This document shows positions 21,570 through 35,400 of a stretch of DNA of 35,400 nt, one piece after another. The translations under genes and the position numbers were made by a program. The stretch's first letter is position 1. Each line of letters starts with the position of its first letter. Source of the stretch: an uncultured Bacilli bacterium (GTDB lineage: Bacteria > Bacillota_I > Bacilli_A > RF39 > UBA660); the NCBI GenBank assembly GCA_947588895.1, contig CANQBF010000008.1, positions 1 through 35,400 on the forward strand, read 5' to 3'. A model generated the notes under the pieces. It searched no databases. It had not been told where the DNA came from and saw only the letters and a program-made list of their open reading frames with translations.

Positions 21570-22511
21570 ATGAAAAAAATAATAAAAATAATTTTGATTA
21601 CACTTTTAGTATTTTGCTATGGAAATAATGTGTATGCCAAAAAGAATAATATTACAATCGATGATATAGTAGCCTTTACAAAAATAGGACTTGAAAATTA
21701 TAAAGAGTCAGATAAATTCCTTTATACAAATGTTGTTGTTTATAATAATGCTGCAGCTCATTTGATTGAGATTGAATGTCAATATAATGGTAAAAGTTTA
21801 AAAACTGGTATAACATATGATGATAATTTAAATTTGCAACCAGGTGTTCATACTTTACGAGAGGCAATGGATGTTGAAAACTGCGAAAATCATGAAAATG
21901 CCTCTTTAGATAATGCAATTCATATTCTTAAAATATTTAGTCCATTAAATAATTACTATTTTTCTAATTTAACAGGTTATACTGAAAAAGATATTGAAAA
22001 ATATTTTGATACCGCTAAAAGCACTATGCAAGATAATGGATATGAAAAGAATAGTGACTATGATGGATATTTTAATGTTAATTTTAATAATTTTAGCTTA
22101 GGTATAGATGCAGTAGCACCAACTCAAGAATTAATTAGAGAAGGAGATAGTATTACTCTAAAAATATCATCTGCAGAAAATGATAATACTATTATTCATA
22201 TATTTAGGTCATTAGATAATGTTAATTATGAAGAATATAAAGATATTCAAATTACGAATCAAAGTGGAAATGTTCTATTAACTGCAGAAGATGGTGGTTA
22301 TTATTATAAATCAGTTGTTGAGGGAAGTAATAATTGGAGTGAACCAATATTTGTTGCTAAAAGTTCTGAAAAAATAGGTAGTGATGTTGACCAAGAAACT
22401 GCTAATCCTCAAACTGGTGCAATAGGTATTTCAATTGCTTTATTTATAATGTTAATACTTGGAGTTACATATAATATTTTAAATAAAAAGAAGAATATAG
22501 CTAAAATATAG
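21570..22511 (+). CDS. Secreted protein with C-terminal NPQTG sorting-type signal
   Basis: 313 residues. Signal peptide MKKIIKIILITLLVFCYGNN with likely cleavage after NVYA (about residue 23). The C-terminus has NPQTG, then a hydrophobic segment (IGISIALFIMLILGVTYNIL) and a basic tail NKKKNIAKI, the three-part layout of a sortase substrate with an NPxTG variant of LPXTG. The mature part (about 260 residues) has a Tyr/Asn-rich region and a last portion (ITLKISSAENDNTIIHIF, DGGYYYKSVVEG) that looks like a beta-sandwich. AAGGAG lies 13 bases before ATG 21570, longer than usual. Exported and probably cell-wall anchored; otherwise unknown. No sortase gene is in the window. Confidence 0.82.
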   Translation: MKKIIKIILITLLVFCYGNNVYAKKNNITIDDIVAFTKIGLENYKESDKFLYTNVVVYNNAAAHLIEIECQYNGKSLKTGITYDDNLNLQPGVHTLREAMDVENCENHENASLDNAIHILKIFSPLNNYYFSNLTGYTEKDIEKYFDTAKSTMQDNGYEKNSDYDGYFNVNFNNFSLGIDAVAPTQELIREGDSITLKISSAENDNTIIHIFRSLDNVNYEEYKDIQITNQSGNVLLTAEDGGYYYKSVVEGSNNWSEPIFVAKSSEKIGSDVDQETANPQTGAIGISIALFIMLILGVTYNILNKKKNIAKI

Positions 22512-22536: not shown

Positions 22537-22566
22537 AAAACTAGTTCATTATTTTGAACTAGTTTT
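22537..22566. terminator. Bidirectional terminator between the NPQTG and cysteine-rich protein genes
   Basis: AAAACTAGTTC (22537-22547), 8-base loop, GAACTAGTTTT (22556-22566). An 11-bp perfect stem with A/T flanks, between converging genes. The minus-strand stop codon is in the loop. Confidence 0.8.
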
Positions 22567-24717
22567 AGTTTGTCTTGTTTTACCGGTTCTTTCCCAACCT
22601 GGAATGCTTGTTTTTGTACTCCATTGATATCTATATTTTGTTACTTGACTACTAGATTTAGTTACATCTATATATTCAAGTTTGCCTTTAGTACAAATAG
22701 TATTGGCATTTTCACCATATTTAGTATATCCTTTAGGACAAGTATAAGTAGTATTTACTGTTGCATTTTTAGAATCAGTTGTATTCATTACACATTTACT
22801 ACCACTTAAAGTTCCTTCAGCACAAGAATAAGAAGTATTAACACTTGGTGCTTTATATTCATCAGTTGTTTTATAACATGTTGATCCAGATAATGTATAA
22901 CCATAATCACAATAGTAATTTATATTTTTATTAGGCATTATTGTTTCCGTATTTTCTACATAACAATAATCACCATTTAATTCTCCACCATATGGACATA
23001 CTTGGTCAACTTCTTCGATATACTCAGCAGTTTTTGAACATACAGTGTTGTATCCACTTCCTGATTTGCTATAACCAGCTGGACAAGTTGGATTAAATTT
23101 ACTACTATTAGTTTCAGTTTTGACACATGATTTACCATCTGAACTTAAAGTTCCTGATGAACAACTTGTAGTTCTCTTAGAAGTTGTAGCATAACATTTT
23201 GTTGATGAACCACTAGTGCCTTTAGATGAATATCCACTAGCACATGAATATGTTTTAGTAGCTTCAGTATAATAAGATGAACCAGCTGGACAGTTATAAG
23301 TATATGTACCTGTTGAACAATTTGATGAACCACATTTATCTGGTGTATATCCAGAATATGTACATCCTTTATAAGTTTCTCTCATGTATTCTTTTACTTT
23401 TAATGTTGTAGCTTTACTTCTTGTAACTTTACATTGCGAACCTTCAAGTTTTCCACTAGAACATGTATAACTAGTTTTAACTGCTGAAGAAGTATAATTC
23501 TTAGCTACACATGTAGAACCATATACCTCATATCCACTTGGACATTTAGATGATGGAGTACCTACAGTTACGGTTTTAACACATGTTCCATTTGAATAAG
23601 TATATCCATCACTACATTTAGCTATATAGTTTGTACGTTGTACACAAGTATTACCTTGTTTTGTATAACCACTAGGACAACTTCCACCATTTGATACTTG
23701 TGTAGCTCTATAATTATATTTTGTAGTTTTAACACAACGAGCAGTTAATCCATAACCGAATAATTGATATCCAGCTGGACAAGTTAAAGCTTCGTTATAG
23801 TAAGCAGCTTTTGTACTACTTGTAGTTTTATAACACTTAGTATTTGCACCAGTTCCAACAGCTACATAACCATTTTTAGTATCACATGAGTATTTAGTTG
23901 TAACTTTTGCATCAATAGTTTTACTACCATTTTTAATACATTTTGTGCCTGATTTAGTATATCCAGTTGGACAAGTGTATGTAGTTGTTACTGTTGGCTT
24001 AACACTACTTGAAGTTTCTCTATAACATCTATTTCCTTGTTTTACATATCCATTTGGACAAATATAATTAACAACATCTTCAACATATGATTGTTTATAT
24101 TCGTATTCTGTTATATAAGTTGGAGTATTTTTATCTTCTGGAGTGTTATCACTTGGTTTATCTGATGGTGTTGGTGTATTATTACTTGGTTTATTACTTG
24201 GTGTTTCTGTACAACTACCATTTGTACATAATTGATTACATCCTAATTCTTCATTAGTTTTACCAACTTCTTTACCACAAACTAGAGTAATAGTCATAGT
24301 ATAATCACCATTAATATTAGTAACTAAAGCATAACTTGCTTCTAAGTCACAAGCTTGATTATTATATCCAAATGGTAATAATAATCCTTTATCAATTAAT
24401 TCTTTTAATGTGAATTTTAATGATTTTCCTGTATCAGGTAAGTTACTAATTAAAAAGTATTCTTTAGCAGTATCGTGAAAATAACGATAATTTTCAATAA
24501 AATCATTTGAATAATAACTTTCTTGAAGAGAAGAGTTTGAGTTATTACCAGTACCGTTTGTACCATTATTATTAACATTAACTAATGTTTTTTGACCATT
24601 ATTTCTAATTAATAACCAAAATATTAAGAATAATAATACTACTACAATAACAACTATTGCAACCTTTTTAAATAAGCTTCCCCAATTGATTTCATTTCTT
24701 GGTTCTTCAGTATACAT
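22549..24717 (-). CDS. Membrane-anchored cysteine-rich repeat protein
   Basis: 722 residues. Cytoplasmic tail of about 18 residues, one membrane helix (about 19-37), an Asn/Gly linker, a domain of about 100 residues (TAKEYFLISNLPDTGKSLKFTLKELIDKG to TLVCGKE), a Pro/Ser/Thr spacer (PSNKPSNNTPTPSDKPSDN), then about 16 repeats with paired cysteines, typical form CPxGYxxxGxxC, separated by Thr/Tyr-rich strands such as TTYTC. Nearly all cysteines come in such pairs, pointing to disulfide-stapled hairpins outside the cell. No enzyme motif is seen. AAGGAGGT lies 9 bases before ATG, 24 bases after the stop of the coiled-coil gene, so the two form an operon. The repeats resemble EGF- or TNFR-like modules in look only. 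An adhesin or surface structure is plausible. Confidence 0.85.
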   Translation of the reverse strand: MYTEEPRNEINWGSLFKKVAIVVIVVVLLFLIFWLLIRNNGQKTLVNVNNNGTNGTGNNSNSSLQESYYSNDFIENYRYFHDTAKEYFLISNLPDTGKSLKFTLKELIDKGLLLPFGYNNQACDLEASYALVTNINGDYTMTITLVCGKEVGKTNEELGCNQLCTNGSCTETPSNKPSNNTPTPSDKPSDNTPEDKNTPTYITEYEYKQSYVEDVVNYICPNGYVKQGNRCYRETSSSVKPTVTTTYTCPTGYTKSGTKCIKNGSKTIDAKVTTKYSCDTKNGYVAVGTGANTKCYKTTSSTKAAYYNEALTCPAGYQLFGYGLTARCVKTTKYNYRATQVSNGGSCPSGYTKQGNTCVQRTNYIAKCSDGYTYSNGTCVKTVTVGTPSSKCPSGYEVYGSTCVAKNYTSSAVKTSYTCSSGKLEGSQCKVTRSKATTLKVKEYMRETYKGCTYSGYTPDKCGSSNCSTGTYTYNCPAGSSYYTEATKTYSCASGYSSKGTSGSSTKCYATTSKRTTSCSSGTLSSDGKSCVKTETNSSKFNPTCPAGYSKSGSGYNTVCSKTAEYIEEVDQVCPYGGELNGDYCYVENTETIMPNKNINYYCDYGYTLSGSTCYKTTDEYKAPSVNTSYSCAEGTLSGSKCVMNTTDSKNATVNTTYTCPKGYTKYGENANTICTKGKLEYIDVTKSSSQVTKYRYQWSTKTSIPGWERTGKTRQTKTSSK

Positions 24718-24741
24718 AATTTTTTACCTCCTTTAATTTTT

Positions 24742-27700
24742 TTATCTTGATAAACTACAACCATCATTGGCACTACGCCATTGACTAGTATAGAATTCTT
24801 GAATTTCATTATTTATATTAAATGTTTCATCAGAAACTTTATAATCTATTAATACAAATAAACCATTAATAATGTGTCCAACAAATCTATGGTCTCCAGA
24901 ATCAACAATTGTTGCATTTGAATTATTTCCATAAATATTTGCACCATTATAATTATTAGCATATGTTTTAATAAATTCTGTTATTGACTTATTGATAGAA
25001 TCATCAGTTGGATTAGTTACTTTCATATTTAATAAGTTTTCAAATTCTACTAAGAAATAATATAAATCAGAATCAACTGCTGCTAATAAATGTAAATTAT
25101 TTAACTTAGCAGAATTTTCTGGTGTAAGAGCACCATCATCGATAAGGTCAAATGAAATAGCATTTAATTCATCACATATTTCAGTTAAGTAATCAGCATC
25201 TTCATTAGTAATAATATTTCTATTAGCAATTGAATTTAAAACACCAACGATATAATTAATTTCTTTATCATTTAATATTCCAACTGATTTAATATTATAA
25301 GCTCTATTAACATATTCAACAGCAGTATTTCCAGTTAAATTATAAATGTTACGAGCATTTTCATAATCAGCGATATTTATAATGTTAAATCCATTAGCAT
25401 TTAAATAACTTTGAGCAAGTAGAGAAGCATTAGATTCATCATATCCACTAGCCATTATAATATTTTTTAAATTACTAAATGCATCATTAGCAGTATTAAC
25501 ATCTAAATTGTATGTAATTTCATTATTACTTTCATAATTACTTGAAATACTTGGAATATCATCAATTTCAGTATTTTTACTATTTTTTATAGCTTTACTA
25601 ATTTTGCTACCTGCAATAATTATTGCAGTAATACCAATAACACAGCCAGTGATAGCAAGTATTTTATTTTTATTATCTTTTATTTTATCAAGTATTTCAT
25701 TTTTCTTTTCATTTTTTACTTCATTATTTTCATTCATATTTTCTTTATTTTTGTTTAATTTTTTGATTTCTTTTTCAATAGAAGTTAATTCTTTTTGTAA
25801 TTGTTTAATTTCTTTATTAGAATATAAGAATTTATTATTTAACATTTCATTTAATTTTGCTTGTTTTTCTTTATATTCAATTGTTAATGATTGAACTTTT
25901 TCGTTTATTTCTTCTTCACTTAAATTCTTTTCTTCAATTTTTTTAGCTTCATTTTGAATTTTAGTTGCTTTTTTGTTTGCTTGTTCTTTTACTTTTTCTG
26001 CTTTCTTTTCAGCTTCTTTTTTAGCTTCTAAAGCTTCATTTACTAATTTTTGGGCTTCTATTTCAGCCATTTCTTTTTCTTTATTTGCATCATTCATAAT
26101 TTTATTCACCTCATCTTTAGCATCTTTTAAAATCTTAAGAGCTTCTTCTCTTATTTTTTCAGCTTCTATTTTTGCTTCCTCAACTTTTGTTTTCATCATT
26201 TTAGTATTTTTTTCAAAATCTTTTATTTTTTCTTCATATTTATCTAGTTGTTCTTGTGCTTTAATTGATGTTTCAGTTGCTTCATTTTTAATTTTTTCAT
26301 TTTTTTCTTTAGCTTCTTTTACTTGTTGCATCATCATTTTTACATTATTTAAAGCATCAATCGTTTCTTGATCTATTTTCTTAAGTTCATCTTCAGCTTT
26401 CTTTTTAGCTATTAATAAACTATTAATTTCTTCATTTGATTTATTTTTAGCATTAATAACTTGTTGCTTTAATGTATCAACTTCTTGTTTCTTTTCTAAA
26501 ACACCATTATTAATTTCATTAATTTTTTCTTCAAGTTTAGCTTTTTCTTCATTAGCTGAATTAATTATCATTTCTGCTTCGTCTTTACTTTTGTTATACT
26601 CATCTAAAGAGTTATTTATAATATTTTGAGCTTCAACTTTAGCTTCTTCTAATTTTTTATTAGATACTTCAACATTTTTTTGAGCTTCTAAAGCTTTTTC
26701 TTTTAAATCATGAACTTCTAGTAGTTTTTGATTTAAAATTTCATTTTCTTCTAAAGCTTTATCTTTATTTTCTTGAGCTTCAACTTTAGCTTGTTCTAAT
26801 TTTTCTTTTAATTCTTCAACTCTTTTTTGAGCTTCTTCAACTTCGTTATTAATTTCTTCTAATTCTTTTTGAGCAGTCATTTCTTCAATTGTTGCTTCAT
26901 TAATTAAATCCTCAGCTTTTTTCTTTTCATCCAATAAATTTTGTTTAGCTTCTTCTAAAGAATTTTGACTTAAAAGTACAGTATTGTTAATTTCTTTAAT
27001 TTTATTATTAATATTTTCTTTTTCTTTATTTGAATTATTAATAATTTCATTAGCTTCATTTTCAGCTTTTTCTTTATCTTCTAAAGCTTTATTAATTATA
27101 TCATTAGCATTTTGTTTAGCTTCTTCTAATTTAGTTTCAGCTAATTTAACATTCTCTTCAGCTTCTTTGGCTTTAATTTCAAAATCTTTTATTTGATCTT
27201 CATATTCTTTTTGAATGTTTAAAGAATTTTCAATTATTTCTTTTGATTTATTTTCAGCATCAATAACTTGTTGTTTAGCATTTAAAATATTATTTTTTGC
27301 TTCTTGAGTTTGATTTTCAAATTCTTGAATTTTCTTTTGAGCTTCATTTTGTTCATTTATTGAATCTTGAATTATTGCATTAGCTTTCTTTTCTGCCTCT
27401 TCAACTTTTTGTTTAGCTTCATTTGCTGTTTCTTGAGCTTTAGCAATTTTATTTTCAATTTCACTAAGTTCTGTTTCAGCATTTTTTTGCTCATCTAAAG
27501 CTTTATTAATATCATCTTGAGCTTTTTGTTGCATTTCATTTAATTTTTGTATCATATCATCAGCATTTTGTTTAGCTTCTTGAATTTTTTTATTTATCTC
27601 TTCTAATTCTTGAGTTGTTTTATTTTGCATATCAATATTACTATTAGTGATTTCCTCAAGTTCTTTTAAAGCTTTATTTTTATCATCTAAAGCTTTTTTT

Positions 27701-28377
27701 ATTGCTCCTTCAGTTTCTTTTTGAATCTCAATTGCGTTTTGTTTAGCTTGATTAGCTTTTTCTTGAGCTTCTAAAGCTTGATTTTTCATTTCTTGAATCT
27801 TTTCTTGAGCATTTTCAATTGCATTTAAAGCTTCTTTTTTCATTCTATCAGCTTCATCAGTAGCTTCTTTTAATATTTTATTAGTGTCTTCAATAATTTT
27901 ACTATATTCATTTTTGTCATTTTTAAACATAACTGAAATTTTCTTTTCTAGGTCCTCTTTAATTGGCTCAATGTCAACTTCGTTTTTATTTTCATAAAAT
28001 TCTTCGCCTATATTTGGTATAACTAAATTATCTTCATCATCATTACTAATTTTTGTATTCTTTTTTGCTCCTTCAATTAAAGCATTAGTATCAATATTTT
28101 TAATTTTATCAAGTTCATCTGGTGTAAATTCCTTTAATAATTTATTCATTTTGGAATTATAATTTTTATTTACTTTTTCTAATGCATTTCTTTTAGCATT
28201 ATTTTTCATGCACGTATCACGTTCAAAATCTGTTAATTCTCTTTTTTGGTCATCAGCCTTAGAATAAATATCCTTAATTTCTTGATTTAAATCTTTAATT
28301 TTTTGATTATTAAGTGTTATTATTGATAATATTTGAATGTATTGGTTAATTTTATCGTTTGATTCACCTAAACTCAT
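24742..28377 (-). CDS. Giant coiled-coil membrane protein
   Basis: 1211 residues from ATG 28377, which follows GGGGG by 9 bases; the open frame to 28404 is rejected. Short N-terminal helical part, then an almost unbroken Glu/Lys/Ala/Asn-rich coiled coil from about residue 130 to 890 with recurring units such as ALEAQEKANQAKQNA and NNSLDEYNKSKDEAE; one membrane helix (ILAITGCVIGITAIIIAGSKI, about 903-923); and a C-terminal domain of about 280 residues that would lie outside, ending in DGCSLSR. No signal peptide, so the coil is predicted cytoplasmic. The layout recalls cytoskeletal or tethering proteins (EzrA-, TolA- or myosin-like in appearance only). No ATPase motif, so it is not SMC. The first gene of the operon with the cysteine-rich protein. 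Function unknown. Confidence 0.85.
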   Translation of the reverse strand: MSLGESNDKINQYIQILSIITLNNQKIKDLNQEIKDIYSKADDQKRELTDFERDTCMKNNAKRNALEKVNKNYNSKMNKLLKEFTPDELDKIKNIDTNALIEGAKKNTKISNDDEDNLVIPNIGEEFYENKNEVDIEPIKEDLEKKISVMFKNDKNEYSKIIEDTNKILKEATDEADRMKKEALNAIENAQEKIQEMKNQALEAQEKANQAKQNAIEIQKETEGAIKKALDDKNKALKELEEITNSNIDMQNKTTQELEEINKKIQEAKQNADDMIQKLNEMQQKAQDDINKALDEQKNAETELSEIENKIAKAQETANEAKQKVEEAEKKANAIIQDSINEQNEAQKKIQEFENQTQEAKNNILNAKQQVIDAENKSKEIIENSLNIQKEYEDQIKDFEIKAKEAEENVKLAETKLEEAKQNANDIINKALEDKEKAENEANEIINNSNKEKENINNKIKEINNTVLLSQNSLEEAKQNLLDEKKKAEDLINEATIEEMTAQKELEEINNEVEEAQKRVEELKEKLEQAKVEAQENKDKALEENEILNQKLLEVHDLKEKALEAQKNVEVSNKKLEEAKVEAQNIINNSLDEYNKSKDEAEMIINSANEEKAKLEEKINEINNGVLEKKQEVDTLKQQVINAKNKSNEEINSLLIAKKKAEDELKKIDQETIDALNNVKMMMQQVKEAKEKNEKIKNEATETSIKAQEQLDKYEEKIKDFEKNTKMMKTKVEEAKIEAEKIREEALKILKDAKDEVNKIMNDANKEKEMAEIEAQKLVNEALEAKKEAEKKAEKVKEQANKKATKIQNEAKKIEEKNLSEEEINEKVQSLTIEYKEKQAKLNEMLNNKFLYSNKEIKQLQKELTSIEKEIKKLNKNKENMNENNEVKNEKKNEILDKIKDNKNKILAITGCVIGITAIIIAGSKISKAIKNSKNTEIDDIPSISSNYESNNEITYNLDVNTANDAFSNLKNIIMASGYDESNASLLAQSYLNANGFNIINIADYENARNIYNLTGNTAVEYVNRAYNIKSVGILNDKEINYIVGVLNSIANRNIITNEDADYLTEICDELNAISFDLIDDGALTPENSAKLNNLHLLAAVDSDLYYFLVEFENLLNMKVTNPTDDSINKSITEFIKTYANNYNGANIYGNNSNATIVDSGDHRFVGHIINGLFVLIDYKVSDETFNINNEIQEFYTSQWRSANDGCSLSR

Positions 28378-28411
28378 AATTATTTTCCCCCTTTGTGAAT
28401 ACACGGCGTCT

Positions 28412-28440
28412 ATAATACCACTAAAGAGTCATAATGTCAA
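28412..28440 (-). promoter_or_regulatory. Promoter of the coiled-coil/cysteine-rich operon
   Basis: TTGACA (28440-28435), 17 bases, TATTAT (28417-28412) preceded by TGG, an extended -10. A strong housekeeping-type promoter. Confidence 0.75.
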
Positions 28441-35349: not shown

Positions 35350-35400
35350 GGACCTCTAGCTCAGTTGGTTAGAGCATCCGGCTCATAACCGGGCGGTCGT
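35350..35400 (+). tRNA. tRNA with anticodon CAT (Met elongator or Ile2), partial at window end
   Basis: Acceptor 5' strand GGACCTC, TA, D arm GCTC-AGTTGGTTA-GAGC, anticodon arm TCCGG-CTCATAA-CCGGG with anticodon CAT, then variable loop. The 3' part lies beyond the window. Anticodon CAT means elongator Met, or Ile if the wobble C becomes lysidine; the visible half cannot decide. Not the initiator: the D arm and anticodon stem lack the GGG/CCC initiator pattern. Confidence 0.92.

Follow-up and report, generated by a model that had tools for sequence, protein, structure and literature searches.

What do a very long coiled-coil protein and a cysteine-rich protein, encoded side by side, build in the envelope of an uncultured gut Bacilli bacterium? 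The two genes lie on the minus strand of contig CANQBF010000008.1, of which we analysed positions 1 to 35,400, here called the window. The first, COIL (24742–28377), encodes a single-pass protein of 1211 residues from its ATG; an alternative GTG start at 28404, giving 1220 residues, falls within the conserved leader described below. The second, CYS (22549–24717), encodes a single-pass protein of 722 residues with 39 cysteines and a membrane helix at residues 19–37. They are separated by exactly 24 nt (24718–24741, minus strand) carrying the ribosome site AAAGGAGG, so that the arrangement given by the first-pass annotation, an operon with the genes 24 bases apart, holds. The operon is ordinary-looking and undescribed, and constitutes a genuine envelope module of two genes that is widely conserved.

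The promoter, TTGACA-17-TATTAT with an extended TG (28440–28412, minus strand), matches the consensus at 11 of 12 positions. Promoter-like sites are not commoner in the region than in shuffled sequence (72 versus 75.6), and it is conservation across the genus which makes this one convincing: a site matching at 11 or more positions precedes COIL in 25 of 32 genus loci, with a 17 nt spacer in nearly all. The promoter proposed for the pair is thereby confirmed. A near-identical leader, GACGCCATATTCACAAAGGGGGATT, follows the promoter upstream of COIL in the genus loci. In the window it occupies 28378–28411 (minus strand), running from GACGCC to TATTCACAAAGGGGG and including a ribosome site. The 15-mer TATTCACAAAGGGGG occurs in 40 of 247 loci, once in each. 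Promoter and leader are kept although the COIL ectodomains share only 17–29% identity with that of the window, and together they are possibly a regulated leader. In the window (28378–28440) and in loci L031–L065, promoter plus GACGCCATATTCACAAAGGGGGATT occurs once per locus and is far better conserved than the protein downstream.

Of the 38 genus genomes, 34 contain the COIL ectodomain. COIL lies immediately upstream of CYS, with gaps of −28 to +26 nt, in each of the 33 genus loci showing both genes, window included; a further COIL locus (L041) stops at a contig edge and is outside this count. The usual setting is between tmcAL/miaA and pnp. Profile searches found neither gene in the four remaining genomes, two of which are at least 92% complete. 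The named records of relatives, largely of the same species, belong to uncultured Bacilli, and rabbit gut metagenomes are the source of most of them. Genome size, SpoIIP and the literature (PMC6784871, PMC10868615) suggest that the genus belongs to order RF39. The relatives behind all co-occurrence counts are not phylogenetically independent. Absence of linkage or co-occurrence in relatives had been named as what would speak against the pairing; as the genus shows the two genes linked and co-occurring throughout, this objection falls away. COIL and CYS thus form one putative transcription unit and are inherited together.

The cytoplasmic part of COIL comprises residues 1–905 (25663–28377, minus strand). 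It contains a proline-free run of 767 residues (139–905), in which hydrophobic periodicity has a peak power of 65 at 3.54 residues, compared with no more than 6.9 after shuffling. The run also carries a degenerate 46-residue quasi-repeat (46/13 = 3.54), with an autocorrelation z of 5.6 against shuffles preserving the hydrophobic pattern. The coil is genuine, and periodicity and repeat analysis bear out the predicted length of about 750 residues and more than 100 nm: at 0.1485 nm per residue, 767 residues correspond to about 114 nm if fully extended. A comparable periodicity was found in the COIL cytoplasmic region of no other congener. These regions are mostly 140–380 residues long (634 in L065, at least 532 in L061) and short in L151 and L156. 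In L057 and L062 the cytoplasmic part is missing, and a lipoprotein signal at the start directly precedes the ectodomain. Homology between the cytoplasmic sequences of the window and of its relatives was not detectable. A shared conserved N-terminal cytoplasmic domain was rejected, the relatives' profile scoring no better on the window than on shuffled sequence; a conserved coil ruler is ruled out by the lack of periodicity in congeners. SMC and Rad50 were likewise dismissed, since matches lay mainly over the coil, with a score of 21 bits where the cut-off is 567, and no ATPase head was found. The long coil is a peculiarity of the window species, and the conserved part of COIL lies elsewhere.

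This bears on the structure originally suggested for the pair, a cytoskeleton-to-surface organelle for attachment or shape, in which coils would bundle inside the cell and CYS would act as the outer adhesin. The genuine 767-residue coil with its regular repeat and the surface partner encoded in the same operon would fit it, and coil rulers exist in Mycoplasma (PMC8191905). HMW2 of the Mycoplasma pneumoniae attachment organelle resembles the COIL of the window species, and of this species only, in being a very long cytoplasmic coil of a small-genome bacterium. Unlike HMW2, however, COIL has a membrane anchor and an outer domain, and its coil does not form the conserved core among congeners. A sequence relation to HMW2 was not found, and Pfam and NCBIfam revealed no homology to HMW-type proteins. 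As a conserved organelle the proposal fails because the relatives lack the coil on which it would depend: no congener shows a comparable coil signal, two lack the cytoplasmic part, two have a short one, and the inner regions show no homology. It is left as a species-specific possibility, and we regard it as unlikely.

Conservation is found outside the membrane. The COIL membrane helix (residues 906–924; 25606–25662, minus strand) is followed by a 287-residue outer domain (residues 925–1211 plus stop; 24742–25605, minus strand). An N-in/C-out orientation is supported by the charge at the helix, on average net +2.3 on the N side and 0 on the C side, and by the lipoprotein signals preceding the ectodomain in L057 and L062. 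The single-span topology and outer domain of the first-pass annotation therefore stand, and COIL and CYS are both single-pass with their conserved parts outside. In CYS these parts are a five-cysteine N-domain (Cys 123, 147, 160, 164 and 169; 24163–24717 including the membrane helix), a region of two-cysteine CPxGY...C hairpins holding 34 cysteines (Cys 220–675; 22690–24060) and a C-terminal tail, TKYRYQWSTKTSIPGWERTGKTR (22552–22650), all on the minus strand; in COIL it is the ectodomain. A pair conserved outside and variable inside could also be a transmembrane sensor, whose outer parts detect the state of wall or host and whose inner part relays it, and a membrane J-domain protein is encoded in one CYS operon (L135). 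We found no signalling domain in COIL with Pfam or NCBIfam, however, and two species dispense with the inner part, which makes a sensor improbable. Relatives of known structure were found in the PDB for neither the COIL ectodomain nor the CYS domain, and the CYS N-termini, considered for a type IV pilin-like protein, showed no prepilin motif.

The first 90 or so residues of the COIL ectodomain match the N-terminal accessory module of M15 carboxypeptidases of the VanY/LdcB type (hhalign E 4e-5). The matching module comes from such an enzyme encoded after CYS in 13 loci. Outside the genus, the profile of the first COIL module gave hits in 24 further genera (the tally is 24 of 144 with the own genus included), and all 18 out-of-genus loci examined proved to be M15 carboxypeptidases. 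This suggests that the first module of COIL is wall-associated. Unlike these enzymes, COIL gave no Pfam or NCBIfam match to the M15 catalytic domain, only the accessory module being in common, and runs on into a different, probably helical domain. The shared module and the adjoining carboxypeptidase in the 13 loci could alternatively indicate a wall-remodelling or sporulation complex acting with the enzyme; the window contains a SpoIIP gene, and RF39 Bacilli are predicted to be thin-walled, with some sporulating (PMC10868615). Yet neither the window locus nor most others have the carboxypeptidase, and SpoIIP is a separate gene on the opposite strand, at a distance of about 3.5 kb. We give this explanation little credence.

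Of the 39 CYS cysteines in the window protein, the N-domain holds five and the repeat region the other 34; within the genus totals range from 27 to 51, with an odd number in 30 of 31 proteins, and elsewhere the count is odd in 69 of 79 despite widely varying totals. Totals shift by even steps between species, and the conserved extracytoplasmic cysteine pairs looked for in a disulfide-bonded surface protein were found. Nearly all COIL ectodomains, in turn, carry a cysteine at most 24 residues from the C-terminus. Odd CYS counts together with this residue make an interchain disulfide between CYS and COIL plausible; since CYS proteins with no visible partner can have odd counts too, the free cysteine could instead serve CYS–CYS bonds. 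Even parity of the combined cysteine count was rejected (even in 14 of 31) and lends an interchain disulfide no support. A search of the 38 genus genomes for four families of the disulfide machinery found VKOR and DsbB in none. DsbD and Thioredoxin_4 matched in a single genome (G210; L234 and L235), which may be contamination. The short, probably cysteine-bonded repeats resemble EGF-like repeats (EGF_LRP2, E 0.014, below the Pfam cut-off), from which they differ in having two cysteines per unit, not six.

Outside the genus, 123 of the 145 genomes sampled, representing 122 of 144 genera, carry the CYS N-domain. In 79 such loci, close co-directional neighbours of CYS have a single internal transmembrane helix in 35 of 63 cases, compared with 9 of 134 background genes (Fisher 1e-13); some of these partners lie upstream and others downstream. 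For the upstream cluster L103/L110/L112/L127, hhalign gave a match to the distal part of the COIL ectodomain (P 6e-5 to 7e-5, against 0.49 for the reversed control and 0.066 for the best of 60 column shuffles), and the match holds with 12 members (P 4e-5). A search with the partner profile only gave hits in 14 of 193 genomes, with CYS directly downstream in all 12 loci fetched; eight of these had built the profile, so that four are independent. Cysteine-repeat tails in CYS are associated with the upstream, COIL-like partner type (Fisher P 3e-5). The main downstream cluster of other genera was rejected as a COIL homologue (P 0.24). A phage origin of the pair was also rejected, with no PHROG of weight and no viral-contig relative. 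That COIL and CYS are functionally unrelated neighbours held together by a shared strong promoter, as could be argued while their direct interaction is putative, is most improbable given that the pair persists in other genera and despite strong divergence of its proteins, and that both genes are absent together from four genomes.

We consider the chances even that COIL and CYS are the two subunits of a complex dedicated to the envelope, COIL as its wall-associated anchor and CYS as a cysteine-laddered stalk. COIL would keep this complex at the thin peptidoglycan layer, while CYS, stiffened by its ladder of two-cysteine hairpins, would project outward and end in the conserved tail rich in Tyr and Trp. 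With a fifth, unpaired cysteine in its N-domain, CYS may form a bond to the near-C-terminal cysteine of COIL or to another CYS. The fast-changing cytoplasmic part of COIL would be dispensable, and in the window species it may have grown to a rod of about 114 nm, by which the complex could be linked to the inside of the cell. Rather more doubtful is the full version, a new family-wide envelope module of uncultured gut Bacilli combining the laddered stalk, a one-cysteine bond to the wall anchor, an exchangeable inner half and, in one species, a rod of more than 100 nm. The surface of these abundant bacteria is almost uncharted, and the pair provides a named target among its unannotated proteins. 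That the pair is retained when its proteins have become almost unrecognisably different would mark a core envelope structure. The reading predicts wall binding and, in an organism for which no thiol oxidase is known, a disulfide between the two chains, and the species-specific coil may serve as a natural experiment in which an internal rod is added to a membrane complex.

Several further observations concern the surroundings of CYS and the window. The J-domain protein of L135 (6924–8210) is a single-TM protein with its DnaJ domain on the cytoplasmic side (Pfam E 2e-8); another single-TM protein in a CYS operon (L127, 283–1869) has a cytoplasmic N-terminus that looks similar and gave no Pfam match. 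In L131 (4988–7637), a CYS-like N-domain is fused to Ig-like domains beside a sortase-like gene and a 997-residue protein with 33 cysteines; the layout of L133 is similar. These sortase-associated surface proteins match the CYS N-domain weakly behind an N-terminal transmembrane helix, and unlike CYS they have Ig-like instead of cysteine-hairpin tails and no COIL-type partner. At the edge of the window, a truncated tRNA (35350–35400) was matched by Rfam and missed by ARAGORN. Convergent to CYS, the window encodes a secreted protein of 313 residues (21570–22511) ending, like a sortase substrate, in NPQTG and a hydrophobic tail; its relatives adjoin CYS in L052 and L054.
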